Source: a virus. From it: a stretch of 64,000 nucleotides of DNA. The stretch lies in the IMG/VR virus record IMGVR_UViG_3300008050_008852, positions 62,001 to 126,000 of that record; one strand, written 5' to 3'. The position numbers were made by a program, and so were the translations under genes. The notes below the pieces were generated by a model. It was not told the DNA's origin. It searched no databases and saw nothing but the letters and a program-made list of their open reading frames with translations. Shown in pieces: positions 12,396-55,241 of this stretch. Each line of letters opens with the position of its first letter. Within the stretch, counting starts at the first letter, position 1.

Positions 12396-12958
12396 TGAAT
12401 AACGAATTTGTAATCGGCTTAGATGTGTCAACAAGTTGTACTGGCATTTCAATTTTAAGTCTAGATGGTAAAGTAATTAATATTTCGTACTGTAAACCAA
12501 AAGGTGATACGTTAGTAGAAAAAACTATTGACTTTAAGCACTTTGTTTGTAATTTTTTGAGTATAAATGGCTTTGGAAAACCTCAACATATATATATTGA
12601 ACAAAATCTTCAAAAATTCCGGCGTGGATTTTCGAGTGCTCAAGTTATTAATAAACTTGCAAGATTCAATGGTATGGTTAGCTATGTAATGTTTGAAAAT
12701 TTTAATGTGCAACCAGAATATATAAACGTCAATGAAGGTAGAAAAGCTTTGGGTATTAAGGTTCCTCGTGGATCAAACGCTAAAGAGGTTGTCTTTAAGT
12801 GGTGTAAGCACTCATATGCTAATTTAGAGTGGCCAACAAAAAAATTAAAGTCAGGTCCGAGAAAAGGGCTTGTAATCTTAGACACATGTTGTTATGATAT
12901 GGCAGATGCCATTGTAACTGCAGCCGCCGGGATTACGTTAGATGAACGAAATAGATGA
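12395..12958 (+). CDS. RuvC-like Holliday junction resolvase
   Basis: The product is 187 residues from the ATG at 12395; a TTG three bases earlier is less likely because it has no better ribosome-binding site. The RNase-H-like fold of RuvC resolvases is shown by the first strand IGLDVSTSCTGISIL with Asp10, the second acidic motif IYIEQ with Glu69, and the C-terminal DMADAIVTA with Asp168 and Asp171. These four acidic positions match the metal-binding set of RuvC. T4 itself resolves branched DNA with endonuclease VII (gp49), an unrelated fold, so this protein probably replaces that function before packaging. It overlaps the following primase gene by 17 bases. Confidence 0.75.
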   Translation: MNNEFVIGLDVSTSCTGISILSLDGKVINISYCKPKGDTLVEKTIDFKHFVCNFLSINGFGKPQHIYIEQNLQKFRRGFSSAQVINKLARFNGMVSYVMFENFNVQPEYINVNEGRKALGIKVPRGSNAKEVVFKWCKHSYANLEWPTKKLKSGPRKGLVILDTCCYDMADAIVTAAAGITLDERNR

Positions 12959-13934: not shown

Positions 13935-13942
13935 GGGATTAA

Positions 13943-14599
13943 ATGTTAAAAATTGCTCATTTAGCAGATATACATTTTAGAGGTTTATCACGTCATGACG
14001 AATACCGTTATGCGTTTGAACAGTTTTTCGATCAGTGTGATAAGATAAAACCAGATCATATAGTAATTGCTGGTGATATTGTACACTCTAAAACGCATGG
14101 TATATCACCGGAATTAGTTGACATTTTAACGTGGTGGTTTAAAACCATGGCTTCAATTGCTCCAACACATATTATACTGGGAAATCATGATGGTTTAATG
14201 CATAATAAAAGTAGGCAAGATGCAATTAGCCCAATTGTTAATGCAATTGATTCTAGTAATTTATACCTATATAAGGAATCTGGCAATTATTTAGTTGGTG
14301 ACGATATTTGTTTTAATGTATTTTCGTGTTTTGATGAAGATAATTGGGATAAAGTAGTACCAGTACCTGATAGAATTAATATAGCACTTTATCATGGTGC
14401 CGTGAAAGGCAGTGAAATTGAGACAGACTGGATAATTGAAGGTGAGGTTGAAGCAGCTATATTTGATGGTTATGATTTTGCAATGATTGGTGATATTCAT
14501 AAACGCCAAACTGTTTCGTCTAGATGGTCTACAAAAGAAATAGATGAAACGGAATTAGAGGGTTATATAGCCTCTGGTTGGGAAATTGTTAATGAGTAA
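13943..14599 (+). CDS. SbcD/Mre11 (gp47)-type nuclease, N-terminal catalytic part
   Basis: The product is 218 residues, against 339 for T4 gp47. All metallophosphoesterase motifs are present in order: HLADIHF (Asp9, His11), IAGDIVH (Asp45), LGNHDG (Asn81, His82), LYHGAV (His151) and GDIHKRQ (Asp184, His186). The chain then ends with 28 residues (191-218) that look unlike gp47 and like the tail motif of phage homing endonucleases ('ELxxYxxxGWE'). The missing C-terminal capping domain is found at the start of the next gene, in the same frame after a single TAA and one codon. The nuclease centre is complete, so a two-chain enzyme is possible. With gp46 it would resect DNA ends for recombination-dependent replication. 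Confidence 0.8.
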   Translation: MLKIAHLADIHFRGLSRHDEYRYAFEQFFDQCDKIKPDHIVIAGDIVHSKTHGISPELVDILTWWFKTMASIAPTHIILGNHDGLMHNKSRQDAISPIVNAIDSSNLYLYKESGNYLVGDDICFNVFSCFDEDNWDKVVPVPDRINIALYHGAVKGSEIETDWIIEGEVEAAIFDGYDFAMIGDIHKRQTVSSRWSTKEIDETELEGYIASGWEIVNE

Positions 14600-17176: not shown

Positions 17177-17426
17177 TGATATACGAATTATAAAAGATGA
17201 AAATTATCAAAAGGTACCATTATCATGCGATGTTTGTGATACAATGTTATGTGTTTTTGATATTATGGATTATAAGAAATATGAGTGCTGCGCCAATTGT
17301 TCATTGATGATTGCTCACCCAAACGCAGAAAAATGGCTTAATGGCTGGCGTCCTTCAAAGAAAGAAATTGATAGAGTGGTAGAAAACCAGAATAATACGC
17401 CTATTTATATCATGAGAGGTTTGTAA
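17160..17426 (+). CDS. Small zinc-ribbon-like protein
   Basis: The product is 88 residues from the ATG at 17160, chosen because AAAGGAG (17144-17150) lies nine bases upstream; ATG 17154 and TTG 17151 are too close to that site. Two cysteine pairs, CDVC and CANC, separated by about 20 residues, suggest a zinc ribbon. The remaining sequence has no recognised motif. It overlaps the end of the gp46-like gene by 17 bases and its stop overlaps the next ATG by one base. Its function is unknown; the context suggests a nucleic-acid-related accessory factor, but nothing in the sequence shows that directly. Confidence 0.6.
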   Translation: MFVQFSDIRIIKDENYQKVPLSCDVCDTMLCVFDIMDYKKYECCANCSLMIAHPNAEKWLNGWRPSKKEIDRVVENQNNTPIYIMRGL

Positions 17427-17809
17427 TGCTAAATTCAAATGAAGTAAATATTTTGGGGAATATCTTTAATTCCTCATTTGGAAAATCATCACTTACATTT
17501 AATTGTAAGGCACTATTAGAAGATGATAGAATAAAAGTAATGTATAGTACATCAGCAAGTTTCGCTTCAGAGCAAGACATGCATTGGCAACAGGTGCGTT
17601 TAAGTGAAGAATCAACAGCTAGAATTGCTGATTTTATTACAAATGCAAAAAAAGAATTTAAACAAGAATCTGGTGTTGCCTTAAAACTCAACGAAATACT
17701 TGATAGGGATTCTCTTGAGCTTGTGAATGCGTCAATGAATAACCCTCGACGCGTCTTTGTCTACAGGCGCTTTGCGGAGTTTGAGATATTAAATGGCGCC
17801 AAGCAATAA
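17426..17809 (+). CDS. Conserved-looking hypothetical protein upstream of terminase
   Basis: The product is 127 residues. The ATG overlaps the previous stop (TAATG) and has GAGAGG six bases upstream. The sequence is mixed alpha/beta, with a central strand pair (NCKALLEDDRIKVMY, then WQQVRLSEE) and a C-terminal FVYRRFAEFEIL strand. I do not recognise the family. It occupies the place where T4 encodes small terminase gp16, directly before the large terminase with a 17-base overlap. The sequence does not show the coiled-coil or helix-turn-helix form usual for small terminases, so that assignment is only positional. Confidence 0.55.
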   Translation: MLNSNEVNILGNIFNSSFGKSSLTFNCKALLEDDRIKVMYSTSASFASEQDMHWQQVRLSEESTARIADFITNAKKEFKQESGVALKLNEILDRDSLELVNASMNNPRRVFVYRRFAEFEILNGAKQ

Positions 17810-32148: not shown

Positions 32149-33408
32149 GTGAGCACATTTCAACAAACACATGCAAGTAATAATGAGAAAGGGATATCTA
32201 AAGATCCTGATTTCACTATACCGTCATGTACAATAGAAGATGTTGATCGTGCAATTTTTCAATTGTTTGATAAAGATATTGATTTATTCTATACACACGA
32301 TTCAGCAATAACAAGAGTCCCTGTTGTATTTGCGACTGGTGAACGTTTTGCTATTTTGGCTAGAAATAAACCTCTTCGTGACAAGAACGACGCCCTCATC
32401 CTGCCATTGATATCGATTGCAAGGGGTACAATACAGAAAGATATGTCAAGGGGGACCAGCACAAATCAGGCTGCCCCTGTTACAATCAAGCGCCGCTTAA
32501 GTACTAGTGATCCTGCATATCAACAAATTATAAATAAAGAATCCATAAAGAATCAAGATAATCGAGCCCATAGCTCTCATAAGGCTGGTATATCTGGTAC
32601 AGGTATAACGTCTGGCTCAATTGCAACACGTAGAAATTTAAGTGAAACAAATGCCATATATCGTTCCGGAAGGCTTCTTGAACAAACTGGTAAAAATAAT
32701 ATTTATGAAATTTTAGAATTACCAAACGTAAAATATTATACGGCAACATATGATATTACTATTTGGACACAATATACACAACAGATGAATGATCTTATCA
32801 TGGCATTTATAAATTCTACTCATACTGGCTCAAAGGTATCGTTTAGAATTGAAACCGATAAGGGCTACTATTTTGTTGCTTATTTAGATGGTGATATTTC
32901 TCCATCAAGTAATTTTGACGATTTTACAGACTCTGAACGGCTAGTTAGATATGCATTTACGATGTCTGTTCCAGCTTATATAGTAAACCCTAATTATGCC
33001 GGTTCAAGAAATGAAATTAGAAGATTTATATCGGCACCTCAAATATCATTTGATATTACAGCCGTCAACGCACCGCTAACATCAAAGAATATTGTTGGTG
33101 TTCCAAGCGGAAAATCAGAAAGTTATGCGCTTAATGAACTAAATACTAAAGATATGCCTCTTCCAGGCCAATCAGTAGCAGAAAATAGTCAAGCGGATAT
33201 TAATGAGTATTATGACTCCGCGGCTCTTGGTGGAGCAAAATCAGGCCGCGAAAGAGTTGAAGTTGTTAGGACTTTTATTGATCCTGTCTCCGGAGAGGCA
33301 ATTAGTGAAGTTCTTCCATTCAAGCAAAGGAATGCCCGAAAGGGCGAAACTGTGTATCAAGCACAATTAACAGATGATTTAGGTACAATAACTGTTGTAC
33401 CGGAGTAG
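32149..33408 (+). CDS. Tail sheath stabiliser / tail completion protein, gp15-like
   Basis: The product is 419 residues from a GTG start (T4 gp15 is 272). The stretch ITRVPVVFATGERFAI aligns in style with IRVPITYASKEHFMM of T4 gp15, and YYTATYDITIWTQYTQQMND with its IYELSIFTRYEDDM segment; the same spacing to a closing strand (ERLVRYAFTMSVPAYI) follows. gp15 forms the hexameric ring that ends the tail tube and sheath and receives the neck. The extra length is a variable middle and a charged C-terminal tail. It lies just before three sheath genes, as expected. The ribosome-binding site is weak, fitting a protein needed in few copies. Confidence 0.72.
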   Translation: MSTFQQTHASNNEKGISKDPDFTIPSCTIEDVDRAIFQLFDKDIDLFYTHDSAITRVPVVFATGERFAILARNKPLRDKNDALILPLISIARGTIQKDMSRGTSTNQAAPVTIKRRLSTSDPAYQQIINKESIKNQDNRAHSSHKAGISGTGITSGSIATRRNLSETNAIYRSGRLLEQTGKNNIYEILELPNVKYYTATYDITIWTQYTQQMNDLIMAFINSTHTGSKVSFRIETDKGYYFVAYLDGDISPSSNFDDFTDSERLVRYAFTMSVPAYIVNPNYAGSRNEIRRFISAPQISFDITAVNAPLTSKNIVGVPSGKSESYALNELNTKDMPLPGQSVAENSQADINEYYDSAALGGAKSGRERVEVVRTFIDPVSGEAISEVLPFKQRNARKGETVYQAQLTDDLGTITVVPE

Positions 33409-33412
33409 AATA

Positions 33413-33463
33413 ATGAAGTTTAATGAGATAATTACTATTGAAGAATTAAAAGGAGCTCAATAA
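33413..33463 (+). CDS. 16-codon leader ORF coupled to the first sheath gene
   Basis: An ATG with CGGAG ending eight bases before it opens a frame of 16 codons (MKFNEIITIEELKGAQ). Its TAA overlaps the sheath ATG as TAATG, and its codons 13-15 contain the sheath ribosome-binding site (AAAGGAG). This arrangement resembles a translational coupling leader. No homologue is known to me, and a frame of this size may be accidental. Confidence 0.4.
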   Translation: MKFNEIITIEELKGAQ

Positions 33464-36400
33464 TGGCTGAACAAACTTTTCGATCACCCGGATTTTTTGA
33501 GAGAGAAATCGATCTATCCGGACGTACGATTGAACCAACTGGTACACCTGCTGGTGTTATCGGAACATCAGAGCGAGGACCTGCATTTATTCCAGTAACT
33601 GTAGGTTCAATCGAAGACTTCACTGCACGCTTCGGCGATCTGGATCCAAATTTGGCTGGACCATATGCTGTGAATGAATACTTAAAGCATAAAGATGCTG
33701 TTACATTTATGAGGGTTCTAGGAGCCGGTTCAAATGATACAGAATCTGAGATATCTGCAACAAAGACATATGGCATAGTTTCTAAGGCGGGTTTTAAACT
33801 CACAGATGTAGCAACTACCATCGGCGTCGCCTCAACTGCATGGGGTCACGGCGCGCCATTGTTTCTAATGGCTCAACATTACGTATCAACATCAGTTGAA
33901 TCAATGTCACTACCAGAATTTACTGATAACAGTTCTTTCCCAAACCTTGGGGCTGGTGATAATACGGTTAACTTGTTAAGAGGCGTAATATTTCCAACAA
34001 CAGGTTCAAGGGTTATTTTAGCCGACGCCGGAGCGGTGACGGCAGCTGAAGTAGATATAACTACTAATCAATGTACTGTTGATATCGATTCAACAGGTAA
34101 AACATTCAAGAAATTTAAAATAATTGTTTCTTCTTCTGCAGGTACTGGATTTTCAAATGACGACGATCTCCCTGGATGTAGAATTTACACCGCTTCATTG
34201 AATCCAACAAGTGACGATTATATTTCAAAGGTACTTAATACAGATCCAGATGAATTTCAGTCACGTCAACACTTGCTTTATCTTGACTTTGCAGTTGAAG
34301 ATGAGTTGGCTCCAGTTCACTGTTCCACAGCGGCCGGCGCTAGTGTTCCATCTACAATATTAATTACATCTGGTTCAGCCGTAGAAAATGTTTCTGGTGG
34401 ACAAAGCGACAGTTATCTTAATTCATTCGGAAGATTTGATACTCGTTACACAACTCCAAAAACACCAGCTATTATATCACAACCATTTGGTGGTACAGAA
34501 TTTGATCTGTTTCACCTTGAATCATTATCTGATGGTTCTTATGCTTCTGATAAGTTAAAGGTTAGTATTGCAAATATTAGAGCATCAACTGATAAGAATT
34601 ATCCATATAGTTCATTCGAGGTTCAGGTTCGAAGCTTTAGTGATCAAGATGAAGCAAAGGAAGTTATTGAAGCATATCCAGACGTAAACCTTGATCCTAA
34701 CAGTGGCAGGTTTGTCGGTAAGATGATTGGAGACTTTAAGCCAAAGTTTAACTTCGATTCACTTGATCTTGATGAACAACGAATTGTTGTGTCGGGTAAA
34801 TATCCTAATATGAGCAAATATGTACGTGTTGTTATTAACCAGGCTGTTTATGATGGTGAGGTACCAAAATCCGCAACACCGTTCGGCTTTCGTGGTATCC
34901 CGGTACTTAAGACAAATGATTCTATGACAGATACTCCTGGTACTGCCTTAGTAGATAAAAACGGTAATGCTGTTGGTAATGCTGCGACATTCCATAGAAT
35001 GTATAACGAATATAAGACAATAATAACTGGCTCAATTGTACCACCTCTGCCATTTAGATTCAAGCTTACTAAGGGAAATGTTCCAACCTCGGCCGGCCCA
35101 TATGTTGGTTATCCATCAAGTGTCGAGCGCGCTGATTCAAGAATGTATTGGGGTGTTAAGTTCGAGCGTTGTGCAGATATAAATAATGTTGCCAACTCCG
35201 GCTTAAATCCAAATGCTGGCTCTGTACCAAATGCAACCGTTTCTGCATATGCAAAAATGCAAGGTATAGCTGGATTAGACAACTTGGTTACTGGTTCTGG
35301 GGCAGATATATTTAACGATAATAAGTTTACTCTTTCTAGAGTGGCATTGTCTGCAACTTCAATGGCAAATGTAACATCCTCAGCCGGTGAACATATGCTT
35401 GAAGCCGCATATATAAGGAACGGTTATCCAGAGGCTAAAACATATACGATCAATGACGGTTTATTATCCGGACGTTATACACTTGCTACATTGTTAGCTA
35501 GTTCTTCAATTAAGTTTAATAGATTTACATCATATGCTAAGTTTACAACACCATTTTATGGTGGCTTTGATGGTCTCAATATTCTTGATAAAGATAACAG
35601 ATGTTTAACCGATAAAGGCGCCGCAACAGATCCTGGTGGAAAAGCTGCAGATACTATTACTGGAGGTCTTGGCCTTTATGGAACTAACGATGGTTCTATG
35701 ATGGGTAAGGGCCCACAAAACAATGCGGTATTTAGTTATAACAAGGCAATTAGAATTATGACTGATCCAATGACGGTCCGCCATAATTTGCTAGCCATTC
35801 CAGGAATCCGTGATCCATATATTACAGATGAGGCTTTAGCTGGTGTTAAGGCATATTCACTTGCAATGTACGTAATGGACATTCAACATTATGATGAAGA
35901 TGGAAATAGGTTATTTGCCGATAATCCTGCAAGACCAGATGTTAGAGAAACAGCTGAACAATTTGAAAGTCGTAGAGTTGATAACAACTATGCTGCAACG
36001 TATTTCCCTGATGTATTTATTGATGATGTTACAAATAACAAACCTGTTTTTGTTCCGTCCTCAATCGCAGCGTATGGTGCCTTAGCCTATAGTGACAGTG
36101 TTTCATTCCCTTGGTTTGCTCCAGCTGGTTTCAATCGTGGTGCACTTGGGTTTGTTAGAAACACTGAGACAAGATTAACTGCTGGTGATCGCGATGATTT
36201 ATATGACGCAAGAGTTAATCCGATTGCAAACTTTCCAAATGGAGGATTTGTAATATTCGGTCAAAAGACACTGCAAATTAATAAGAGCGCTCTTGATAGA
36301 GTCAATGTACGTCGAATGCTTCTTGAAGTTAAGCGACAGATTTCTAGTATTGCAAAACAACTTCTTTTCGAGCCAAATAACGCAAATACTCGAGCTCGTT

Positions 36401-36609
36401 TCATAGGTCAAGCTGCTCCAATATTATCATTGATTCAATCACAATCTGGTATTGAAAAGTTCTCAATAGTAATGGACGGTACAAACAATACGCAGGAAGA
36501 TATCGATGGAAATCGTCTTAATGGTCGAATAGTTGTTGTTCCTACTAGAGCAATTGAATACATTGCAATTGACTTCGTTATTACTAATGCTGGAGTTGAA
36601 TTCGCGTAA
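33463..36609 (+). CDS. Tail sheath protein, gp18-type, copy 1
   Basis: The product is 1048 residues (T4 gp18 is 659). The N-terminus has the sheath pattern TFRSPGFFEREIDLSG ... AGVIGTSERGPAFIPV, and the C-terminal domain the typical RVNVRRMLLEVKRQI ... LLFEPNN ... RAIEYIAIDFVIT, ending with a strand that serves as the inter-subunit arm. The phrase FPWFAPAGFNRGAL (near 885) is shared with copy 3. The sheath is a contractile polymer around the tube. Between about 110 and 180 this copy differs from copies 2 and 3. It is coupled to a leader ORF upstream, and its TAA overlaps the ATG of copy 2. Confidence 0.9.
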   Translation: MAEQTFRSPGFFEREIDLSGRTIEPTGTPAGVIGTSERGPAFIPVTVGSIEDFTARFGDLDPNLAGPYAVNEYLKHKDAVTFMRVLGAGSNDTESEISATKTYGIVSKAGFKLTDVATTIGVASTAWGHGAPLFLMAQHYVSTSVESMSLPEFTDNSSFPNLGAGDNTVNLLRGVIFPTTGSRVILADAGAVTAAEVDITTNQCTVDIDSTGKTFKKFKIIVSSSAGTGFSNDDDLPGCRIYTASLNPTSDDYISKVLNTDPDEFQSRQHLLYLDFAVEDELAPVHCSTAAGASVPSTILITSGSAVENVSGGQSDSYLNSFGRFDTRYTTPKTPAIISQPFGGTEFDLFHLESLSDGSYASDKLKVSIANIRASTDKNYPYSSFEVQVRSFSDQDEAKEVIEAYPDVNLDPNSGRFVGKMIGDFKPKFNFDSLDLDEQRIVVSGKYPNMSKYVRVVINQAVYDGEVPKSATPFGFRGIPVLKTNDSMTDTPGTALVDKNGNAVGNAATFHRMYNEYKTIITGSIVPPLPFRFKLTKGNVPTSAGPYVGYPSSVERADSRMYWGVKFERCADINNVANSGLNPNAGSVPNATVSAYAKMQGIAGLDNLVTGSGADIFNDNKFTLSRVALSATSMANVTSSAGEHMLEAAYIRNGYPEAKTYTINDGLLSGRYTLATLLASSSIKFNRFTSYAKFTTPFYGGFDGLNILDKDNRCLTDKGAATDPGGKAADTITGGLGLYGTNDGSMMGKGPQNNAVFSYNKAIRIMTDPMTVRHNLLAIPGIRDPYITDEALAGVKAYSLAMYVMDIQHYDEDGNRLFADNPARPDVRETAEQFESRRVDNNYAATYFPDVFIDDVTNNKPVFVPSSIAAYGALAYSDSVSFPWFAPAGFNRGALGFVRNTETRLTAGDRDDLYDARVNPIANFPNGGFVIFGQKTLQINKSALDRVNVRRMLLEVKRQISSIAKQLLFEPNNANTRARFIGQAAPILSLIQSQSGIEKFSIVMDGTNNTQEDIDGNRLNGRIVVVPTRAIEYIAIDFVITNAGVEFA

Positions 36610-39600
36610 TGCCAAGCCCAGGTACTGAATGGTCGCGAGGATCATCTCTTCCAGCAGTTCAAGTAGTTGCTGGGGGGGAGGGTCTTGGTGTAATAGGAAC
36701 GTCCCCAAAGGGCCCGGCCTTTATACCCACGTCATTAAAAGATATTTCTGGCTTTGAGACAAAGTATGGAGCTATCTCGGGCGCTAGCTTTGGTATGTTA
36801 GCCGCCCAAGCCTGGTTAGCTAATTCTGAAGGTTGTACTTTTATGCGTCTACTTGGCATTGGAGATGGTCTAAAACGTCTATCTGCCGATTCAACAAATT
36901 CTGATGGAGAATCAATAGCTCCCGGCGCAGTAAAGAATGCAGGGTTCGTAGTGGGCGCCGAAATGACCGGCTCAAACGGAATGTTAGGACCTAATCCATA
37001 CGCAGTAAGCGGTGGTCCACCTGGTCGAACATATTTCCTCGGCGCATTTATGTCAGAGTCAAAAGGTAGTACGTATTTTTCTGATGCTGGTATCCAACCA
37101 ACCACAGACGGTGTACCGATCTTAAGAGGCGTTCTATTTGCGCCATCTGGTGTTATACCATCATTATCAGGTTGTTATACAGAAAACACCTCAACGGCTT
37201 CATTAGGCCCTGCTGCTGGTAATTTTCTTGGTTCAAATGATGGTGGTGCTTCAATAGGCTCAATTTATAAAGACGGTGACGTTTCAGAAAAATTTGTTTT
37301 ATTGTTAAATGGTCATATTTCAACTACTGAATATCCAAATGAAATTAGTGCATCATTAAACACTACAATGACAGATGATACTGGTGTCGATATTTATTTT
37401 GCCAACGCATTCAATACCAATCCAACTAAAATCCGAGAAGCCGGACATTATTTATATACGTATTATGATATTGATCAATCACAAGCAAAAGTTGATGGAA
37501 CTGGCTTTGTAGACCCGGGTTCAACAAAGATAGACGCATATGAGAAAACATTAGAAGATGCAATTTTTCTAACCACATCATCGATGGATAGAAATCCAAA
37601 TGATACTGCTGGTTCTTTATCAATTCCAAATTTTGAAAATTTTTGTGATAGATATCAGACAGCAAAAACACCAGTAATATTTTCACAGTTTATAGATAGA
37701 CAACAATTTGACTTATTTCGATTTCATGCTCTTGATGATGGAACAAATATTGGATCTGAATTAAAGATCACAATAAGAAATCTTGTCCCTCAACTAACAG
37801 ATGATTTATATGGTACATTTGATGTTGTGGTTAGAGATTTGACAAACACCGATGCGGACTTTGGTGCAATTGCTTCCGCGGAAGAATTTATAGGGTGCAA
37901 TTTAGACCCTTCGTCTGAGTTTTATATTGCAAGAGTTATTGGTGATAGACACTTCTATTTTAACTTTGATACAGATAAAACAAGGCAAAAATATGTCCGC
38001 ACCGGTGACTACGAAAATAAATCGGCTTACATTCGTGTTGAAGTAAATCCGGCAGTTGAGAAACAAATTCTTCCAACAAAAGTTTTACCAGCCGGTTTCA
38101 GGGGCCCATATCATTTAGTCACGGCCGGTTCAAGTATTTTAAGCAATAATCAACACCCACTTAGTGATGGTTCGGTTATACCATCATCAACTTCTTGGGC
38201 TCATAAAATAGTTCAATCACCTATACCATACCGTGTTCAATTAAGTAATAATGATAAAACGTCAGATGGAATAACTTTTTTAGAGACAAAAACTGTTGAC
38301 GAAAATGCGAAATATTGGGGTATTAAAACATCAAAACATAAATCGATAGAAGAGCCAAACACAGATCAAAATCAAAATACAAGCTTTATTTCTTATTTAA
38401 AATATTTTCCAACATTCATGACGAATAGAATAAATCCATGGGCTGGAGATAATAATGGTGTTGATGACTCTGACGATACAATATATGATTCGGACCGTTT
38501 TAATAATGCTAAATTTAGTTTAGAAAATATATTAATTCATACAACGTCCTACTGGATTGATGGTATCAAAATTGATGCCCTCGGCGCAGCCATCCCACCG
38601 ATAGATATGGGAATTGATGACACACAATGGGCTTATGCAAGATATAGACCAGATAGAACAAAGATACCGTTAATTGATAAGACCCTTAAACTAAAATCAG
38701 GTGTTAGGTTTTTTGATTTTTCAAAAGATTTATCTATTACTACACCAAATACTTACGCTGGCTTTACAGTTCCGTTACAAGGCGGATTTGATGGTTTTGA
38801 TATGTTTTCTATTGAGAAAACAAATTTTTCAAATCTTGCATCATACTTTGAAATGCAGGATGAAAATCAGGGTCAAAAAACAGGTGCTACCACGGCTGCA
38901 TATTTGACGGCACTTAGAATACTTGAAGAAAAGTCTGAAGCTGCAATTAAATTGTTGGCAATTCCCGGTATCAGATTAGAAGCAATTACAAATAAAGCGT
39001 TACAAGTGGCTGAAGAACGCTTCGACGCGTTTTATGTTATGGATATAGAAGAGGTTGATTCTGAAGGTAATATTTTGTTGACAGGTAGTCATCCTGGTGT
39101 CACAGTTGCTCCAGATCCTACATTAACAGCGAGTAGATTTAAGTCAAGGGCATTAGATAGCTCATTTACTGCCGTATATTTTCCCGACATTCAAATGAGG
39201 AATCCATCGGTTCCATCAAGTGTTATATTTACTCCTCCATCAATATCGGCAATTAGGGTTTATAGTAGATTGTCGGCCGCAGGTAATATTGCTGCACCTG
39301 CAGGTACAAAAAGAGGTATTATAGATACTACCGATGGGACTTTGGGTTTAGCTATTCAACCAAAAGTTATTTTTGACGACACTCAAAAAGAAACAATTCA
39401 GACATTATATGACGCGGTAATAAATCCAATAATATCCAGTACTGATGGGCCAATGATCTTTGGTCAACGAACAACACTTAGTTCTGCTGACTCGATGTTA
39501 CAGCGTGTTGCAGTTAGAAGAATGATACTAGAAATTAGGCGTCTCGTCAGGGAAGTTGCTAAAGGTTTCTTGTTTGAGCAAAATAAAGAATCGACAATGA

Positions 39601-39791
39601 AGGCTTTCGAAAAATCAGTAAGACCATTAGTTCAGCGAATGGTCAATGCTGGCGGGATATCTAAATTTAAGGTTCAGATAGACACATCAACCACATCACA
39701 GGTAGATATTGAAAATAATGTTGTAAGAGGAATGGTCTTTTTACAACCAACAAAATCAGATGAAATAATTCAAGTGGATTTTTCCACATAA
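36609..39791 (+). CDS. Tail sheath protein, gp18-type, copy 2 (divergent termini)
   Basis: The product is 1060 residues. It is clearly sheath-like: LGVIGTSPKGPAFIPTSL near the start, GGFDGFDMFS in the middle and MLQRVAVRRMILEIRRLVRE with FLFEQNKEST near the end. The N-terminal 20 residues differ from copies 1 and 3 (MPSPGTEWSRGSSLP). The FPWFAPAGF motif is replaced by AAPAGTKRGI, and the chain stops at QVDFST without the final 'VxTNxGxE' strand. It shares short identical DNA patches with copy 3. I infer a specialised sheath subunit, for example at an end of the polymer, because the terminal arms that knit neighbouring subunits are the parts altered. Confidence 0.85.
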   Translation: MPSPGTEWSRGSSLPAVQVVAGGEGLGVIGTSPKGPAFIPTSLKDISGFETKYGAISGASFGMLAAQAWLANSEGCTFMRLLGIGDGLKRLSADSTNSDGESIAPGAVKNAGFVVGAEMTGSNGMLGPNPYAVSGGPPGRTYFLGAFMSESKGSTYFSDAGIQPTTDGVPILRGVLFAPSGVIPSLSGCYTENTSTASLGPAAGNFLGSNDGGASIGSIYKDGDVSEKFVLLLNGHISTTEYPNEISASLNTTMTDDTGVDIYFANAFNTNPTKIREAGHYLYTYYDIDQSQAKVDGTGFVDPGSTKIDAYEKTLEDAIFLTTSSMDRNPNDTAGSLSIPNFENFCDRYQTAKTPVIFSQFIDRQQFDLFRFHALDDGTNIGSELKITIRNLVPQLTDDLYGTFDVVVRDLTNTDADFGAIASAEEFIGCNLDPSSEFYIARVIGDRHFYFNFDTDKTRQKYVRTGDYENKSAYIRVEVNPAVEKQILPTKVLPAGFRGPYHLVTAGSSILSNNQHPLSDGSVIPSSTSWAHKIVQSPIPYRVQLSNNDKTSDGITFLETKTVDENAKYWGIKTSKHKSIEEPNTDQNQNTSFISYLKYFPTFMTNRINPWAGDNNGVDDSDDTIYDSDRFNNAKFSLENILIHTTSYWIDGIKIDALGAAIPPIDMGIDDTQWAYARYRPDRTKIPLIDKTLKLKSGVRFFDFSKDLSITTPNTYAGFTVPLQGGFDGFDMFSIEKTNFSNLASYFEMQDENQGQKTGATTAAYLTALRILEEKSEAAIKLLAIPGIRLEAITNKALQVAEERFDAFYVMDIEEVDSEGNILLTGSHPGVTVAPDPTLTASRFKSRALDSSFTAVYFPDIQMRNPSVPSSVIFTPPSISAIRVYSRLSAAGNIAAPAGTKRGIIDTTDGTLGLAIQPKVIFDDTQKETIQTLYDAVINPIISSTDGPMIFGQRTTLSSADSMLQRVAVRRMILEIRRLVREVAKGFLFEQNKESTMKAFEKSVRPLVQRMVNAGGISKFKVQIDTSTTSQVDIENNVVRGMVFLQPTKSDEIIQVDFST

Positions 39792-39795
39792 ACAT

Positions 39796-39849
39796 ATGAC
39801 TAATAGTTTTTGTGATGAATACTTACTATTGTTAAAAGAGGAGCTATAA
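39796..39849 (+). CDS. 17-codon leader ORF before the third sheath gene
   Basis: An ATG five bases after the copy-2 stop opens 17 codons (MTNSFCDEYLLLLKEEL). Its last codons, GAG GAG CTA, form the ribosome-binding site of the next gene, and its TAA ends one base before that gene's ATG. It has no clear ribosome-binding site of its own, so translation would depend on re-initiation after the copy-2 stop. It is weaker than the two similar leaders at 7897 and 33413. Confidence 0.28.
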   Translation: MTNSFCDEYLLLLKEEL

Positions 39850-39850
39850 C

Positions 39851-42800
39851 ATGGCGGAACTTACATTTAAGAGTCCCGGTGTCAGTACAAAGGAAATTGA
39901 TTTAAGCGGACCAACATCAATTTCGCCAACAGGTGTACCTGCTGGTATTATTGGAACTGCAAACCAGGGTCCTGCTTTTGTGCCAGTCACTGTGGCCACA
40001 TTCGCAGATTTTATGACATACTTCGGTAAAACCGACGGCGAAAAATTCGGTCCACTTGCAATGTATGAGTGGATGAAGAATGCTAACGCAGGAACATATT
40101 TACGTGTTCTTGGTGTTGGTGATGGTAAAAAGCGATTATCCGCTGCCGGCACAAATGCCGATGGATCTACCATTCCAGCTGGTGGTGTTAAAAATGCCGG
40201 CTTTATAGTTGGCGATCGCCAGGTTAATATGGCAACCGGCTTAGTTGGTGTTAATAAATATGCATATAATGGTGCCGGCACAGGTGACTTAGGTAGAACA
40301 TATTTCCTCGGCGCATTTATGTCAGAGTCGGAAGGCTCTTCATATTTATCTGATGCTGGTATTCAATCTGCAGGCTCAGACAAATCATCAGCGATCCTTC
40401 GTGGTGTCTTAATGGCCGCCTCAGGTGTTATGCTTTCACTTTCAGGCAACTTTTGCCATGGCAATGCATCAACTGCATCACTTAATAGTTTACCGGATTT
40501 TGATCAAGGATCAACATCCGGTGGTTCTTCAATAGGCTCAATTTATAATAATAGTGGTGTAGGTCGTACTCACAATAAGTCGTATAATTTTGTTATGTTG
40601 TTAAATGGTCATAAAACTACAGAACAATATTCAAACACATTGACTGCGTCACTTAATCCAGCACGATCAAATTATATAACTGAGGTATTTAACACTGATC
40701 CTTCAAAGATCCAGAAAGCTGGCCACGTTTTATATTCACACTATGATGTATCCACTGCTCAGGCTGTTATTACTGGTTCTGGATTAATTCCGGCATGGGT
40801 TACCGCTTCTGCTGGAGCGTTAGACAGTCGGTATACTGAAGAAGCTGTATTCTTGGTTACGTCATCTCTTGATAGAAATGTAGGTTCTGAAACAATTCCA
40901 AACCTTGAAAACTTTAGTGATAGATTTCAACATGCTTTCTCACCTGCAGTTATTTCACAAAAGATTGGAGGCAAGAATAAAGACTTATTTACAGTTCATA
41001 TGCTTGATGCTGGAGCCTTTACAAATACAAATGTTAAGGTATCCATTGAAAACATTAGAAAGTCCAAGGTAGACGATGATTATGGTGTCTTTGACCTGTT
41101 GGTACGTAAGTTTTCAGATGGTGATGAGTCAGTTGCCATTGTAGAGACCGGCGAAACATTCAGAGGTCTTTCGCTTGATCCAAGTTCAGACAATTATATT
41201 GCTCGCCGAATTGGAACAATAAATAAGTTTTATGATTTTGATAAATTACCAGCATCACAGAAAATTGTTGTTGATGGTATTCATCCTAATATGTCACGAT
41301 ATATTAGAGTCGCGATGACAACTGAAGTTGATAATGGTGATATTACGAAAACTGCATTGCCAGTTGGTTTTAGAGGTCCGTATCACCTAGTAACATCTGG
41401 CTCAGGTATTACAATGAATTTCCAGCATCCACTCAACGAAGCCAATGACATGGCCGTCGGTGCTATATTTACAAGAACTGATGACTTAAATCCTGGTAAT
41501 GAAATTATTGAACCACCAATTCCTTATAGAGTGTCTATATCTGATGGCACTGGCGGAAAGAAAAAACCAAACAGTTCTTATTACTGGGGTCTTCAAACAA
41601 CTCAAGTTGATGTCGCAACGACAACGAATTCAAGTCGTATATTCAATAATGGAATCTCTGGATTTACAAAATATTATCCTAAGTTTGCCACTGGTCAACA
41701 GGCTATGTGGGTTGGAGCAAATAATGGTACAATAGATTCAGATGGTACTGTTTATGATTCTGATAATTTTAATAATAACTTATTTTCGCTTGAACAGATT
41801 CAGATTCATACAAAATCAACCGCGGATGTGGTCGATGGCAGAGAATGGGGTTTTGCAAAATATCGTAGAAATAATGAACTAGCTACCCGGGTATTCTTCC
41901 CAAAGAAGGATGGAACAACTGACACCGGCCGTTTCTTAAATGTTGCTAAAGACTTCGGTGATATCGCATCGTTTAAGTACTTTAAGTTTACAATGCCAGT
42001 TCAAGGCGGCTTTGACGGTGTCAATGTTTTTGACAAAGATAAAACAAAATTAGTAGACAATGCTGCTAAGCGTGAGATGAGTGATGAAAATCAAGGTGAG
42101 GTCGAAGGCCCCACTGTCGGCGCATATCTTAAGGCACTTCATATCATGGCTGAAAAGAGTGATGTTGATATCCAACTTTTGGCAGTACCAGGTATCCGAG
42201 AAACAAAAATTACCGACGACGCTATTGCTAAGACTGAAGGTCGTTTTGATGCATTATATATTATGGACATGGAAGAGCGTGATGTAAGTAATAATGTTGT
42301 AACATCATCTGCTCAAGAACTTAGTGTTACAAATACGATCGAAGATCTTAGAGGTAGAGCACTCGATACATCGTTTGCTGCAACATATTTCCCTGACACG
42401 ATTATTCCTGATCCTGTAACACAAACTAACGTACGTGTTCCACCATCTGTTAGCGTTCTTGGCGCTTTATCGTTAAATGATGCAGTTGCATTCCCATGGT
42501 TTGCTCCAGCTGGTTTTACTAGAGGCGCTTTGGCAAATGTCTTTGACACAACAGTTAACTTCAATAGGGCTAATCTTGACTCATTGTACGAAAGCGATAT
42601 TAACCCAATCACACAGTTTCCTGATAAGAAAGAACATGTTATCTTCGGACAGAAAACACTACAGGCTGCAGCATCATCACTTGATCGTGTAAATGTACGA
42701 CGCTTGCTTATCGATGTTCGTCGTAAAGTCCGTAATATTGCTGACACATTCATCTTTGAACCAAATAGAGCTGATACACTTGCAAGATTCTCAGCAGCTG

Positions 42801-42994
42801 TTAATCCAGTGTTAGCACAGGTTCAAGCACAACAAGGTGTTGAACGTTACCGTGTTATTATCGACACTACAACAACAACTCAAGCAGATATTGAAAATAA
42901 TACTGTTAGAGGAAAGATATTTATGCAACCAACCCGCGCGGTTGAGTTCATTGCTCTTGACTTTGTTGTTACAAATAATGGCACTGAAATCTAA
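39851..42994 (+). CDS. Tail sheath protein, gp18-type, copy 3
   Basis: The product is 1047 residues. It has the full sheath layout: TFKSPGVSTKEIDLSG ... PAGIIGTANQGPAFVPVTVA at the start, GGFDGVNVFDKDKT in the middle, FPWFAPAGFTRGAL near 880 and LDRVNVRRLLIDVRRKVRN ... VEFIALDFVVTNNGTEI at the end. It resembles copy 1 at both termini and copy 2 in the segment RTYFLGAFMSES (about 150-160), so the three genes are mosaics of each other. GAGGAG lies just before the ATG and a strong terminator follows. With an intact C-terminal arm and C-ending codons it may be the main sheath subunit. Confidence 0.9.
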   Translation: MAELTFKSPGVSTKEIDLSGPTSISPTGVPAGIIGTANQGPAFVPVTVATFADFMTYFGKTDGEKFGPLAMYEWMKNANAGTYLRVLGVGDGKKRLSAAGTNADGSTIPAGGVKNAGFIVGDRQVNMATGLVGVNKYAYNGAGTGDLGRTYFLGAFMSESEGSSYLSDAGIQSAGSDKSSAILRGVLMAASGVMLSLSGNFCHGNASTASLNSLPDFDQGSTSGGSSIGSIYNNSGVGRTHNKSYNFVMLLNGHKTTEQYSNTLTASLNPARSNYITEVFNTDPSKIQKAGHVLYSHYDVSTAQAVITGSGLIPAWVTASAGALDSRYTEEAVFLVTSSLDRNVGSETIPNLENFSDRFQHAFSPAVISQKIGGKNKDLFTVHMLDAGAFTNTNVKVSIENIRKSKVDDDYGVFDLLVRKFSDGDESVAIVETGETFRGLSLDPSSDNYIARRIGTINKFYDFDKLPASQKIVVDGIHPNMSRYIRVAMTTEVDNGDITKTALPVGFRGPYHLVTSGSGITMNFQHPLNEANDMAVGAIFTRTDDLNPGNEIIEPPIPYRVSISDGTGGKKKPNSSYYWGLQTTQVDVATTTNSSRIFNNGISGFTKYYPKFATGQQAMWVGANNGTIDSDGTVYDSDNFNNNLFSLEQIQIHTKSTADVVDGREWGFAKYRRNNELATRVFFPKKDGTTDTGRFLNVAKDFGDIASFKYFKFTMPVQGGFDGVNVFDKDKTKLVDNAAKREMSDENQGEVEGPTVGAYLKALHIMAEKSDVDIQLLAVPGIRETKITDDAIAKTEGRFDALYIMDMEERDVSNNVVTSSAQELSVTNTIEDLRGRALDTSFAATYFPDTIIPDPVTQTNVRVPPSVSVLGALSLNDAVAFPWFAPAGFTRGALANVFDTTVNFNRANLDSLYESDINPITQFPDKKEHVIFGQKTLQAAASSLDRVNVRRLLIDVRRKVRNIADTFIFEPNRADTLARFSAAVNPVLAQVQAQQGVERYRVIIDTTTTTQADIENNTVRGKIFMQPTRAVEFIALDFVVTNNGTEI

Positions 42995-43020: not shown

Positions 43021-43051
43021 GAGGGGACCTAAATGGTCCCCTCTATTTTTT
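43021..43051 (+). terminator. Rho-independent terminator after sheath copy 3
   Basis: A nine-base stem (GAGGGGACC with GGTCCCCTC), a five-base loop and TATTTTTTT close the sheath transcript. The right arm reaches the stop codon of the antisense endonuclease at 43043-43045. On the opposite strand the hairpin is not followed by a T-run, so it mainly serves the + strand. Confidence 0.88.
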
Positions 43052-44689
43052 TGTAAAGATTAAATTTGGGCAACCCCATATCTTAACAACACCTAAAGAT
43101 TCCGCCACTTCTTTTTCGGTCATATTATTTGCTTTATCGGCACGAATTTTAAAACGATCAATTCTATTTCGTCCATCAGTCCACCAAAAGCGATTAACTG
43201 TTCGTCCTTCAAAATTCCAGCCGGCTGTTGCATAGCCTGCCTTGGTCCCAAATCTTGTATCAACGTACGTAAGTAGTGACGTGAACCCACTCTCAACACA
43301 ATGTTGTAGTGCATACTTGGTGAGCCGACTGAGACCTCCAGGGCAGTGTGTATACATTTTTGTACAGAACCTTGCAATTTCCAATTGACCCTTATATTTT
43401 TTATGGAATGGCATTCTTAATGACATACATGATATCAATTCATTATTGTAAAATAAACCAAGGGCACATGTTGATTTTACATCACCGTCAATATGATTTT
43501 CGTTAAAAAAGTCCCTTCGTGTGGAAACACCAACTGGTTTTATTACACATTTTCTTGCGAAGATGGTTTGTTTAAATATGCCAAGCTTATGGGCAATCAT
43601 TGATTTACATATTTCTTCCTTCTCACGCCATTCATCGTCAAAGATATGAATTAACCCTACATTAGCATCCGCACACTTAATGGTCTTGTCAGAATGATAA
43701 TGTCTATCCTTATAAAGTTCGCTATGAAAATATAAACCATTAAATTCTATTCCAAAGTTTTTGTCTGGAATAAAAATATCTATTTCGTAAGGATTAATAA
43801 CTGTTCTATCACACATATTTGTTTCAAATCCAAGTGATCTAACAAACCGATCAACTTCAACTTGTTGTTTAGATCCTGCCGGATTACATTTATTACAACG
43901 ATTACTTAAAGCGCTTAATAAGCTTTTGGTTTGTAGATGTTTACAGGTTTTACATTCAAAAACTAGATTTTTATCTCTATCTCTGGTATAATCATCTAAA
44001 CCAGAAAGTAATTGAAGATCAGGGGCTCCAATAGATAAGCGTCGAACAATTTCTTCTTGTGTTAGCCGCTTTAGTGAATCAAGTCGTGATCTAATATTTT
44101 TTTCTTTTAATTTTCGTGAAACAGTATAACTCATTTCTAGAACTCGTGAATCAGTCTCCTTTGTCAGACCTTTCGCCCATGGTGTTAATTCACCTGAGGC
44201 ATATTGTTGTTTTAAGCGCTGTGAATTTACCATAAGTCGTGAATCAGTCTCCTTTGTTAACCCTTTACTCCATGAAGATCTTTCGCCAGAATCAAATTGT
44301 GCCTTAACAGTTTTACTTCTTTTAATTGCACCTTTTTTTATTGATTCATTGGTCTCCTTTGTCAATCCTTTTGACCACCCTACTTGTCCAATTAGTGAAT
44401 CTGAGCGCTTTTTACTAATTTTCCGAGCAGTTTCTTGATCGTACGCACTATAGATATTTCCATTATGTCCATCTATAAACTTATTAAAGCCTTTGTTCCA
44501 TGATTTGAAGTTTGTATGTAAGCCACAAGTATTACAGGCACATACTGGCCTATTGCCATTTAATTTTGTTATTGTATAGGCATCTTCTATATCATTAAAT
44601 TCATGTTCAGTAATAAGGTGTTCATTGAATTTTTTCTGCCTTCCACATGTAAAGTCACATGTTGGGCACTTAAATCTTGTTGATGTCAT
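43043..44689 (-). CDS. Free-standing homing endonuclease, Vsr-like EDxHD type
   Basis: The product is 548 residues and the only gene on the minus strand. It has a C2H2 finger (Cys8, Cys11, His24, His29), three 'W-S/A-KGLTKET' repeats (at 105, 140 and 161) of the NUMOD3-like DNA-binding kind, two CxxC knuckles (236/239, 255/258) and a PD-(D/E)XK Vsr-like core. The core residues are Asp294 in YEIDIFIPD, Glu305 in FGIEFNGLY and His312 in FHSE. A C-terminal GNAT-like segment follows. Such enzymes cut a site in related phages that lack them, and repair spreads the gene. It sits between sheath and tube genes, likely near its target. AGGA precedes its ATG on the minus strand. Confidence 0.82.
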   Translation of the reverse strand: MTSTRFKCPTCDFTCGRQKKFNEHLITEHEFNDIEDAYTITKLNGNRPVCACNTCGLHTNFKSWNKGFNKFIDGHNGNIYSAYDQETARKISKKRSDSLIGQVGWSKGLTKETNESIKKGAIKRSKTVKAQFDSGERSSWSKGLTKETDSRLMVNSQRLKQQYASGELTPWAKGLTKETDSRVLEMSYTVSRKLKEKNIRSRLDSLKRLTQEEIVRRLSIGAPDLQLLSGLDDYTRDRDKNLVFECKTCKHLQTKSLLSALSNRCNKCNPAGSKQQVEVDRFVRSLGFETNMCDRTVINPYEIDIFIPDKNFGIEFNGLYFHSELYKDRHYHSDKTIKCADANVGLIHIFDDEWREKEEICKSMIAHKLGIFKQTIFARKCVIKPVGVSTRRDFFNENHIDGDVKSTCALGLFYNNELISCMSLRMPFHKKYKGQLEIARFCTKMYTHCPGGLSRLTKYALQHCVESGFTSLLTYVDTRFGTKAGYATAGWNFEGRTVNRFWWTDGRNRIDRFKIRADKANNMTEKEVAESLGVVKIWGCPNLIFTKK

Positions 44690-44817: not shown

Positions 44818-45306
44818 ATGGCTACTACATTGCCTGTAGCAGATATGCTACCAAATAAATTTGAACCAAAACGTAAGTTTAGATGGGTATTTGCAATTGA
44901 GGGAATCGATGCATTCCTTATGAAAGCAGCTGCTCGCCCTAATGTTACCATTGGTGAAACCACACTAGAGTTTATGAACTCAAAACGTTACCTTGCTGGA
45001 AAGCTTGCTTATGACGCAATCAGTGTAACACTTTATGATCCCATTGCCCCATCCGGTGCACAGCAGGTCATGGAGTGGGTTCGTACCCACACAGAAACTG
45101 TATCAGGTCGTTCTGGTTATGCAGATTTCTATAAGCGCGATTGCCAGATTAAAATGCTTGATCCTGTTGGAACAGTCGTAGAGCTTTGGGATCTAAAAGG
45201 GTGTTTTCTAACCTCTGCTGGTTTTGGTGATCTTGATTATGGAACTGAAGATGCAACAGAGATTGCATTAACAATTCGTTTTGATAATGCAGTGTTACAA
45301 TACTGA
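44818..45306 (+). CDS. Tail tube protein, gp19 type
   Basis: The product is 162 residues, the same size as T4 gp19 (163). It shows the tube fold pattern: NKFEPKRKFRWVFAIEGIDAF, then RPNVTIGETTLEFMNSKRYL, GWLDP-like YDPIAPSGAQQVMEWVRTH, and a closing beta pair. Stacked hexamers of this protein form the inner tube through which DNA passes. AGGAGAAAAC precedes the ATG. The homing endonuclease separates it from the sheath genes, which it normally follows directly in T4-like genomes. C-ending codons fit high expression. Confidence 0.92.
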   Translation: MATTLPVADMLPNKFEPKRKFRWVFAIEGIDAFLMKAAARPNVTIGETTLEFMNSKRYLAGKLAYDAISVTLYDPIAPSGAQQVMEWVRTHTETVSGRSGYADFYKRDCQIKMLDPVGTVVELWDLKGCFLTSAGFGDLDYGTEDATEIALTIRFDNAVLQY

Positions 45307-45485: not shown

Positions 45486-46325
45486 ATGTCTGCTCGTAAG
45501 GGTAATGAAGTATTTGATAATAAACGCCAGACAATGGCACCACGAAGAGATGTCCTAAAGGATGATTTTGACTTCGAAATACCAGTTCAATCGGTTCCTC
45601 TTCCTTCAGGTGGAGTAATTTATCCAGTTGATTCGTCAATGCATGGAAAAACAGAAGTTTCAATTAAGGCAATGACGGCAAGAGAAGAAGATATCTTAAC
45701 GTCTAGAGCATTAATTAAAAAAGGGACTGTTATCACAGAATTGCTTAAATCAGCAATTGTGGAAGATGGGTTCGATCCAGACATTATGCTTTCTGGTGAT
45801 CGAAATGCATTAATGATTACTCTTCGTGTTACAGGTTATGGGGCAGGTTATACTTGCGAAGTTGATTGTCCTGCATGTAGTCAACGAACTAAACAAACTT
45901 TTGATCTTTCAACACTTCCAATTAAGGAGCTTGAAATCGAGCCTGTTGCTCTTGGAGCAAATTTGTTTGAAACGGAACTTCCTATTTCGAAGAAAAAAGT
46001 ACGCTTTAAGTTTCTTACCGGTGCCGACGAGCAAGAAATGGCGGTGATGGCCGATAGAAAGAAGAAACAAGGTGTTACTGTCGATTCAATGGTTACAACT
46101 CGATTGAATCATCAGATTGTTAGTATTGATGGAATTAGCGATAAGACAAAAATTGGTTTTTTCACCCGCGCGATGCCGGCTCGCGATTCTTTACACTTAA
46201 GAAAATTTATTGATAAATCTGAACCTGGTATTGATATGAAGGCATGGATGGATTGTACCTCATGTTTTGAATCATCGGAGGTGCGCTTACCTTTAGGCGC
46301 CTCGTTTTTTTGGCCTGAGTCCTGA
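45486..46325 (+). CDS. Tail assembly chaperone / hub protein, gp26-like
   Basis: The product is 279 residues. It fits the T4 gp26 baseplate-hub family: LPSGGVIYPVDSSM, then VSIKAMTAREEDILTSRALIKKG. The zinc-type pairs Cys128/Cys131 (CPAC) and Cys257/Cys260 (CTSC), and the FFWPES end, complete the pattern I associate with this family. In other myophages proteins at this place, upstream of the tape measure, act as its assembly chaperones and are made in a short and a frameshifted long form. AAGGAG precedes the ATG. The last codons lie on a run of seven T (46305-46311), which is the likely slippery site for the extension described in the next entry. Confidence 0.72.
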   Translation: MSARKGNEVFDNKRQTMAPRRDVLKDDFDFEIPVQSVPLPSGGVIYPVDSSMHGKTEVSIKAMTAREEDILTSRALIKKGTVITELLKSAIVEDGFDPDIMLSGDRNALMITLRVTGYGAGYTCEVDCPACSQRTKQTFDLSTLPIKELEIEPVALGANLFETELPISKKKVRFKFLTGADEQEMAVMADRKKKQGVTVDSMVTTRLNHQIVSIDGISDKTKIGFFTRAMPARDSLHLRKFIDKSEPGIDMKAWMDCTSCFESSEVRLPLGASFFWPES

Positions 46326-54400: not shown

Positions 54401-54939
54401 CTTATCTTATTGTACCTATAGAAAGTGTTAGCTGGCCAGGCCGGGCAGCTCCTCTTGATCCCAATCCGCAAATATTACCAAACCCTATTCCTATACCACC
54501 AATTCCTGGAGCTCCACCACCTGATGCTGTACACACTGATTATCAATTTTTTGAAAATAATGTTATTGTTAAGACAATGGAAGAATCCGGCGGCGCCGGT
54601 ATTGCTGGTGCAATTACATCACTTGATTTTGATTGGAACGAAGCGCCATGGGAAACCAGTGCTGCCCTTGGTAGAGCACCCAAATATGTAAAAGTCACAT
54701 TATCATTTTCACCAATACACGACGAACCATTGGGACTTAATCCAGATGGTTCTCTCCGGGCTGCTGCATATCCTGTTGGAGATGTTATTGGCTCCATTAT
54801 GGGTGAAAGGTTTGGTCTTCCAGGTCGATTACCAAGATCTGGCAAACTTGATGCGATAAAACAAGCTAGACAAATAATTGCGGATGCTGGTCTTCCTCCT
54901 CCGCCTCCACCAGCCGCGGCTGAGGATGCGGAAGGGTAA
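51493..54939 (+). CDS. Large baseplate / tail structural protein
   Basis: The product is 1148 residues. The first 290 residues are Thr/Ser/Gly-rich. A very hydrophobic helix or pair of helices occupies about 303-335 (LLAAVAAITAIIASIVLALI), which is unusual for a baseplate protein. Residues about 630-730 hold the phrases FHDLRTNEIIPLPAFVSAIS, GRMDAVQIYGGTTRKIGFSF and YYGINKLVSLVYPQWGGG, which I associate with structural proteins of marine T4-like phages, function unknown. The C-terminus is Pro/Ala-rich. Its stop overlaps the gp53-like gene by one base. I infer a hub or tail-tip protein; the hydrophobic part could contact the cell membrane. Confidence 0.6.
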   Translation: MADEEINNKKATEIYYPDADGSVKWSDDLPSDGRKTLGEWLNKLTETNIEPVPPASADATMDIDNSQHPYVDPSSIKTVYSETAAGVDIKTDVVKLGPDGNALKLLHDVTPTAATEGTYLDPTTQGTGTTLGRTSEVLTKNRFSPGTSFKSTDAWANTQKLDGSGHATSNASSFGVYDKKFSALAMTELQDVAEQLLLNAVGDKSSPFGDKDAATFDTGAGGILGTQLGISRDSYSADTDFRPAHAIQAARGSGRTATDNVNGSMPKNAPEEDLSENKDYKRTSFGVLNNHLEPFAPALPTSMILLAAVAAITAIIASIVLALIIDVLGAVVSLISGNGLGGGMSPDATYQIFGDSNDPSKLSMGAAFGSNDHSDSGLWASIYRLFNLPPLEAEYDSFFYFTAAATIGSLEFFIGNSLSGSFMMPQILTNSAGYYVVVVRNALRDMEQISDAASDMGGGGVTGAIEGFFGLIDAFTSSATFKFMTTMIQIGDRIMTGPSLKPSRDNNGRVIDGVLRENQSSPTIITDLGKTIRMKSGNRKLSYAFSVLPQIYLRPTETFAYHTLTPSGDAKDPFMDSNDAEIAGVAQFAKQGVQSTDVIISKGLAFGGGEKPPAFWNRLTYIENGRIPTRFRQELENELDAYYMPFYFHDLRTNEIIPLPAFVSAISDSFSPKYSESTSFGRMDAVQIYGGTTRKIGFSFYMVSTSPEDYSALYYGINKLVSLVYPQWGGGTEITNAAGETFQIPYSYVQTASPLIRLRLGELFASNRTPETVRRLFGANMPSFSVPDPNKSDEPAPPTKTYAEPGTTPFFPAHFEAIVSAGRSAAIDPTVSTLILATQVANAGGEAVLYNGCAPTCGGGEGDTAISISGGAQNLDGESILLPTGINVLLPVGITLPAVEWNLASYKKSRWSSRGSRTLSEPWSAKIINYYMRGAPRTAPGEPPKGGYLRNKLYYVVELNVPVVPEAKWPYLIVPIESVSWPGRAAPLDPNPQILPNPIPIPPIPGAPPPDAVHTDYQFFENNVIVKTMEESGGAGIAGAITSLDFDWNEAPWETSAALGRAPKYVKVTLSFSPIHDEPLGLNPDGSLRAAAYPVGDVIGSIMGERFGLPGRLPRSGKLDAIKQARQIIADAGLPPPPPPAAAEDAEG

Positions 54940-55241
54940 TGGCTTTTTCTAGATATTCACGTGCACAAAGATCACAAAAGGATGGAAAGCGTTTTGTTTC
55001 AAGTTCGAGTGCTGGTAAAATAATTAAAAAAATGGTAGACTCAGGCCAATTAAAGACAAAAGATTTTGTATTATCAGATGGTCAACGGCTGGATATAGTT
55101 GCTGCAAATTTTTATGGTGATGCTAAATATTGGTGGGTTATTGCAGCTGCATCTGGAATCGGTTGGCAGTGTCAAGTTCCAGCCGGCACATTATTAAAAA
55201 TACCTGTTTCACTTCAAAAAATATTTGATATGGTTGGATAA
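54939..55241 (+). CDS. LysM-like baseplate protein (gp53 / gpX type)
   Basis: The product is 100 residues. The C-terminal half has the pattern of LysM-like tail proteins: GQRLDIVAANFYGDAKYWWV, then IAAASGIGWQCQVPAGTLLKIP. In P2 gpX and T4 gp53 this small domain joins baseplate parts, and the 'YGD-x-x-YWWVIAAA ... P-x-G-x-x-L-x-IP' phrase is typical. The N-terminus is basic and flexible. One-base overlaps on both sides (TAATG and TAATG) tie it to the two large baseplate genes, so the three are probably made in fixed ratio. Confidence 0.7.
   Translation: MAFSRYSRAQRSQKDGKRFVSSSSAGKIIKKMVDSGQLKTKDFVLSDGQRLDIVAANFYGDAKYWWVIAAASGIGWQCQVPAGTLLKIPVSLQKIFDMVG

Follow-up and report, generated by a model that had tools for sequence, protein, structure and literature searches.

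Three adjacent tail sheath paralogues in a virus known from metagenomes, the middle one lacking both arms

Contractile tails are usually described as a stack of one sheath protein. What kind of tail would be built by a virus that encodes three sheath proteins side by side? The locus that raises this question lies in a 64,000-nucleotide stretch (the window), positions 62001-126000 of the 128,008-base IMG/VR virus record IMGVR_UViG_3300008050_008852, whose source virus is known solely through metagenomes. A preliminary description of this DNA had reported three complete adjacent sheath genes, none of them obviously broken, and we confirm this: the open reading frames, here called S1, S2 and S3, encode 1048, 1060 and 1047 aa and all match phrog_23. 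In window coordinates, the genes, their flanks and the associated signals are as follows.

32149..33408, plus strand: gp15-like sheath stabiliser/terminator, 419 aa (PF16724 E=4.8e-5, slightly under the cutoff)
33427..33434, plus strand: putative late-promoter-like motif GATAATTA upstream of S1
33463..36609, plus strand: S1, first tail sheath protein, 1048 aa (phrog_23 E=6.5e-57; PF17482 E=1e-9), with canonical N- and C-arms
36607..36611, plus strand: TAATG, the S1 stop overlapping the S2 start, a probable site of translational coupling
36609..39791, plus strand: S2, middle sheath paralogue, 1060 aa (phrog_23 E=2.5e-30), without the N-arm strand and the C-arm
39818..39825, plus strand: putative late-promoter-like sequence motif AATACTTA upstream of S3
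39851..42994, plus strand: S3, third sheath protein, 1047 aa (phrog_23 E=9.6e-54; PF17482 E=5.6e-8), with both arms kept
43043..44689, minus strand: HNH/homing endonuclease-like gene between S3 and the tube gene, 548 aa (phrog_3339 homing endonuclease, 1.2e-79)
44818..45306, plus strand: tail tube protein, gp19-like, 162 aa (phrog_4542 7.6e-31; PF06841 1.7e-4, under the cutoff)
45486..46325, plus strand: T4-type baseplate hub protein, 279 aa (PF12322 2e-15)
54939..55241, plus strand: gp25-like baseplate wedge/sheath initiator candidate, 100 aa (phrog_7145 baseplate wedge 1.3e-6; phrog_15542 tail sheath 2.1e-5)

All three sheath reading frames are uninterrupted, and sequence searches of the whole 128-kb record found exactly these three sheath genes. 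Judged by alignment of the three proteins and by family searches, as the preliminary description had advised, S1, S2 and S3 are true paralogues, with pairwise identities of 29% (S1-S2) and 37% (S1-S3). The sheath core and C-terminal domain are recognizable in the sequences of all three; the PF17482 match to the C-terminal domain is above Pfam's cutoff in S1 and S3 and just below it in S2 (E=1.1e-4). Misassembly is excluded because the paralogues have diverged to roughly 30-40% identity and the identical gene order recurs in contigs of other samples. The position of the gp15-like gene directly 5' of S1 is a conserved arrangement in relatives, and the sheath genes belong to a tail cluster of T4 type. 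The presence of T4-type terminase, portal, major head protein, gp32 and RecA-type genes in other parts of the window agrees with a relative of T4. When phage records were searched at the DNA level with the sheath region, there was no match, and the closest genome contigs disagree with one another (Flavobacteriales, Methylococcaceae and Halobacteriovorax MAGs), so that no host is called. The homing endonuclease-like gene is not thought to be a sheath component and is missing from the S3/tube gap in most relatives; in L034 and L064, related genes stand in this gap as well, and in L058, L062 and L004 they lie near sheath/tube genes.

To survey the relatives, we scanned IMG/VR using all three proteins together as well as S2 and S1 separately (best 80 per scan, roughly 220 contigs) and classified the open reading frames of the contigs by profiles built from the first contig set; loci with an identical first sheath protein count as one. 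The S1-S3 tandem occurs in 98 of the 102 loci complete from the gp15-like gene to the tube gene, frequencies that apply to a sample drawn from pattern-seeded scans and limited to the best 80 per scan. A third sheath copy is present in 4 of the 102, as S1-S2-S3 in the window and L087 and as S1-S3-S3 in L060 and L123; in an additional locus, L217, S1 is split in two. S2 was found in the window and nine other contigs, namely L087 and the partial contigs L007-L012, L088 and L089, and nearly all relatives have an S3 orthologue. A single sheath gene is carried by 31 more distant loci of the sample; with the clade profiles, these reach 315-504 bits, versus about 900 or more for clade members, and those included in the tree fall outside the S1/S3 clade. 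The three-gene form is an elaboration, within a subclade, of a fixed two-gene S1/S3 system.

Other sheath arrangements were also seen among these contigs. The huge phage LR756508.1 (L004) carries two sheath genes (11506-13980 and 14995-17469) that group apart from S1 and S3; the product of one of them has a divergent N-terminus and lacks the SPG arm, which parallels S2 independently. In L060 (20757-23231), L155 (3316-6510), L245 (3150-6377), L249 and L225 (8062-10887), another, divergent sheath-like gene lies 3' of the tube gene. S3 carries insertions of roughly 250-600 residues in L020/L159, L160, L225, L234 and L243 (in L243, S1 does also), and a Pfam search of the long inserts of L020, L160, L225 and L243 gave no domain. 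The sheath genes of L050, L143, L217 and L229 are in two frames, for which a frameshift, a true break or an assembly error is possible.

A tree under the LG+C20 mixture model unites all S1 sequences in one clade and all S2 and S3 sequences in another (support of 100 for each), which dates the S1/S3 duplication before the spread of the clade; on this phylogeny, S1/S3 is an old, fixed duplication. The six S2 sequences form one clade (100) adjoining the S3s of the same viruses (97), so that S2 is most likely a younger lineage, copied from S3. FastTree with a simpler model places S2 outside S3, and the AU test does not reject S3 monophyly (p = 0.087); placement of S2 inside S3 is favoured. S2 and S3 share near-identical DNA stretches (87% over 75 nt and 97% over 29 nt), which suggests some gene conversion between them and would blur the placement of S2 in the tree. 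The dN/dS values between the window and L008 are 0.12 for S1 and 0.16 for S2 over 557 codons; both genes are under purifying selection. Together, the old S1/S3 split, the intact frames and these dN/dS values rule out recent tandem duplicates or pseudogenes.

The preliminary description had credited every copy with the N- and C-terminal hallmarks of a sheath protein, and here S2 departs from it. The N-termini of S1 and S3 follow the approximate pattern MAE.TF.SPG....EIDLS, and the EIDLS strand is missing in every S2 seen; S1 typically continues for 10 residues past the final DF and S3 mostly for 8-11, while S2 ends after 2-3 (2 in the window). N-arm identity among relatives is 84-88% for S1, 92-100% for S3 and 32-50% for S2. 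A Trp stands just before the APAG motif in 84 of 84 S1 sequences, 84 of 85 S3 sequences and none of four S2 sequences, and the loop that follows the motif has 19 residues in S1 and in S3 and 27-30 in the readable S2 copies. The middle region of S2 is conserved to the same degree as the rest of the protein. AlphaFold2 models of S1 and S2 (pLDDT 86.6 and 82.0) both have T4 gp18 as first PDB match (E=2.8e-18 and 7.4e-16, respectively); the S1 model has a final strand at residues 1044-1047, which the S2 model does not have, ending instead with the acceptor strands. Since the N-arm is of low confidence in both models, its loss in S2 is read from the sequence. The arms for the inter-ring handshake are thus present in S1 and S3 and absent from S2, whose core and fold make it a sheath paralogue but which does not qualify as a canonical trunk sheath protein.

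The expression signals also set S2 apart. An RATANWTA motif lies about 25-45 nt before the start codon of S1, S3, the tube gene and other late genes; it is found upstream of S1 in 92 of 132 relatives (70%, versus 11% of shuffled sequences), of S3 in 72 of 136 (53%, versus 10%), of the tube gene in 58 of 111 and of the presumed tape measure gene in 27 of 59 (shuffled sequence overall, 8-15%), and upstream of S2 in 0 of 8. RATANWTA is a candidate late promoter of the clade, unlike the TATAAATA of T4, which shows no excess in the window (8 occurrences versus 8.2 expected). S1 and S3 each have a ribosome-binding site; S2 has a weak, distant GGAG 13 nt upstream in most sequences, and its start overlaps the S1 stop as TAATG in all nine contigs with a visible junction. 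The three genes do not, then, encode equivalent, full sheath proteins: the S2 copy is structurally specialised, probably coupled to S1 in translation, and probably minor.

How sheath rings are joined is known from the phages XM1 and E217, in which the N- and C-strands of the upper ring pair with the two-stranded sheet in the C-terminal domain of the lower ring; in E217, the extended sheath is held solely by these inter-ring contacts, and in XM1, the sheath initiator aligns with the sheath C-terminal domain (PMC10457771, PMC10329688). In S2, the C-terminal domain still has its acceptor sheet but both donor arms are gone, so that the protein should accept linking strands and be unable to donate them; the place that suits such a subunit best is the lowest in the stack, at the sheath initiator. 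The explanation that we prefer, and to which we give about an even chance, is a multi-component sheath with S1 and S3 in the trunk and S2 as a minor subunit, most plausibly in the ring at the baseplate end. S1 and S3 would be co-expressed and would jointly form the trunk around one tube type, while S2 would be translated by re-initiation after S1; its acceptor sheet would hold the ring above, and it would have no donor arms to hook a ring below. This arrangement would bring all three products into one virion, with S1 and S3 mixed in one trunk and S2 in low copy number.

The sheath of unlike subunits envisaged in the preliminary description thus gains indirect support from the co-occurrence of S1 and S3 in essentially every clade relative, from the arms and ribosome-binding site (and, often, the promoter-like motif) that both possess, and from purifying selection on the genes for which it was measurable, S1 and S2. 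The ancient S1/S3 pair and the stripped-down S2 make it likely that these tails are built from unlike parts rather than from one repeated brick. Low S2 abundance is a proposal, as coupled translation can also give near-equal yield, and the weak GGAG upstream of S2 counts against it; the gp25-like protein, a putative sheath initiator from its family matches, is encoded as well, so that the sheath could do without an extra bottom ring. No isolate, proteome or map of the clade was found in the material searched. More tentatively, and at somewhat less than an even chance, S1 and S3 may form an obligate heteropolymer, to which the subclade has added the arm-less S2 as an end ring specialised in starting or anchoring the sheath, in convergence with the anti-feeding prophage (AFP) and PVC injection systems.

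S2 could instead sit at the head-proximal (neck) end, as an arm-altered last ring meeting the gp15-like terminator. The acceptor sheet that S2 keeps would be usable by a terminator strand, and in XM1 and E217 the terminator/collar does add a strand to the sheath C-terminal domain (PMC10457771, PMC10329688); however, the subunits of a top ring still need arms of their own to attach to the ring beneath them, an attachment that S2 is apparently unable to make, and the sequence of Afp4, one of the AFP sheath proteins, is missing from the AFP cap entry. We consider this placement unlikely. It is similarly improbable that S2 subunits are scattered in small numbers along the trunk, where they would weaken the mesh locally or expose an outer domain: the middle region of S2 is as conserved as the remainder, and the 75-nt stretch nearly identical to S3 looks as if the outer domain were kept alike, but the arms link the subunits of the extended sheath (as in E217), so that random arm-less subunits should break the lattice. 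A redundant S2, heading for loss and without a role in the particle, would agree with its being the fastest evolving of the three (49-60% identity to relatives, versus 68-78% for the others) and with its confinement to one subclade; on the other hand, S2 is intact in every fully readable copy, its dN/dS is low, and the same specific changes are conserved in all S2 sequences, which leaves this a decidedly slim prospect. Slimmer still is the prospect that S1, S3 (and S2) are alternative sheaths of different virions or conditions, as a promoter-like motif and a ribosome-binding site precede S1 and S3 separately but the two genes share the same late-type motif, lack switch elements such as flanking inverted repeats, and form a pair that is almost never broken or lost across the clade. 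The earlier suggestion that subunits are switched between virions found no support: there are no long inverted repeats around the genes, gene order and orientation are fixed, and the copies are not alternately disrupted. Phase-variable switching was rejected, as just one imperfect 24-nt inverted repeat pair was found, flanking the endonuclease and tube genes.

Among known systems, T4 gp18 is the best PDB match of S1 and S2 by sequence and fold, and a profile of the three proteins S1/S2/S3 aligns to both the N-arm (SPGIELKE) and the C-terminal strand of gp18; T4 differs in having one sheath gene, with a gp18 of 659 aa. The nearest named phages, Microcystis phage Mel-JY01 and Flavobacterium phage immuto, have a similar sheath/tube gene order but a single sheath gene (812 and 709 aa). 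The sheath of the Pseudomonas phage PaBG (Lupandier group) was reportedly treated by Kurochkina in 2018. PaBG resembles the S1/S3 system in having two sheath proteins by gene duplication, which are 38% identical and both present in the structural proteome (PMC7412058); a further source on two sheath genes in phages is PMC9230969. It differs in that its sheath proteins are about 58 kDa, belong to another phage lineage and number two rather than three, and the available part of the same source describes no arm-less copy (PMC7412058); we assume that the S1/S3 duplication is independent of that in PaBG.

Several sheath proteins per machine are also known in AFP and PVC (PMC8894135, PMC12961389), each of which, like the present locus, encodes three sheath paralogues for one machine (Afp2, Afp3 and Afp4; Pvc2, Pvc3 and Pvc4). 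In the PDB, Afp2 and Afp3 sequences are found in baseplate, cap and helical trunk entries (the trunk entry 6RBN contains both), Afp4 is found only in 6rao (baseplate) and 6rgl, and 6j0n, a baseplate entry of PVC, includes Pvc3 and Pvc4 with 6 chains apiece. In contrast to the virus described here, AFP and PVC are DNA-free bacterial injection systems with sheath proteins of 350-450 aa, versus about 1050 in S1/S2/S3, and the ring positions given here for S1/S2/S3 are proposals; sequences align in the C-terminal domain only (E 2e-15 to 3e-4), and the likeness drawn here is one of working alike, with no orthology to Afp2/3/4 claimed. The S1/S3 pair is retained throughout a widespread aquatic virus group, among the relatives sampled. 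If the multi-component sheath is real, this two-sheath group and its arm-less third copy would show how a homopolymer machine turns into a specialised heteropolymer, and they offer natural variants for tests of arm function at sheath ends and of how contraction is set off. No report of a phage with three sheath proteins was found in the open-access literature searched. The tail design, which the preliminary description had called unusual, is indeed so, but it is not without precedent: two sheath proteins are known from PaBG and three from AFP and PVC, and S1/S2/S3 is a variant on these.
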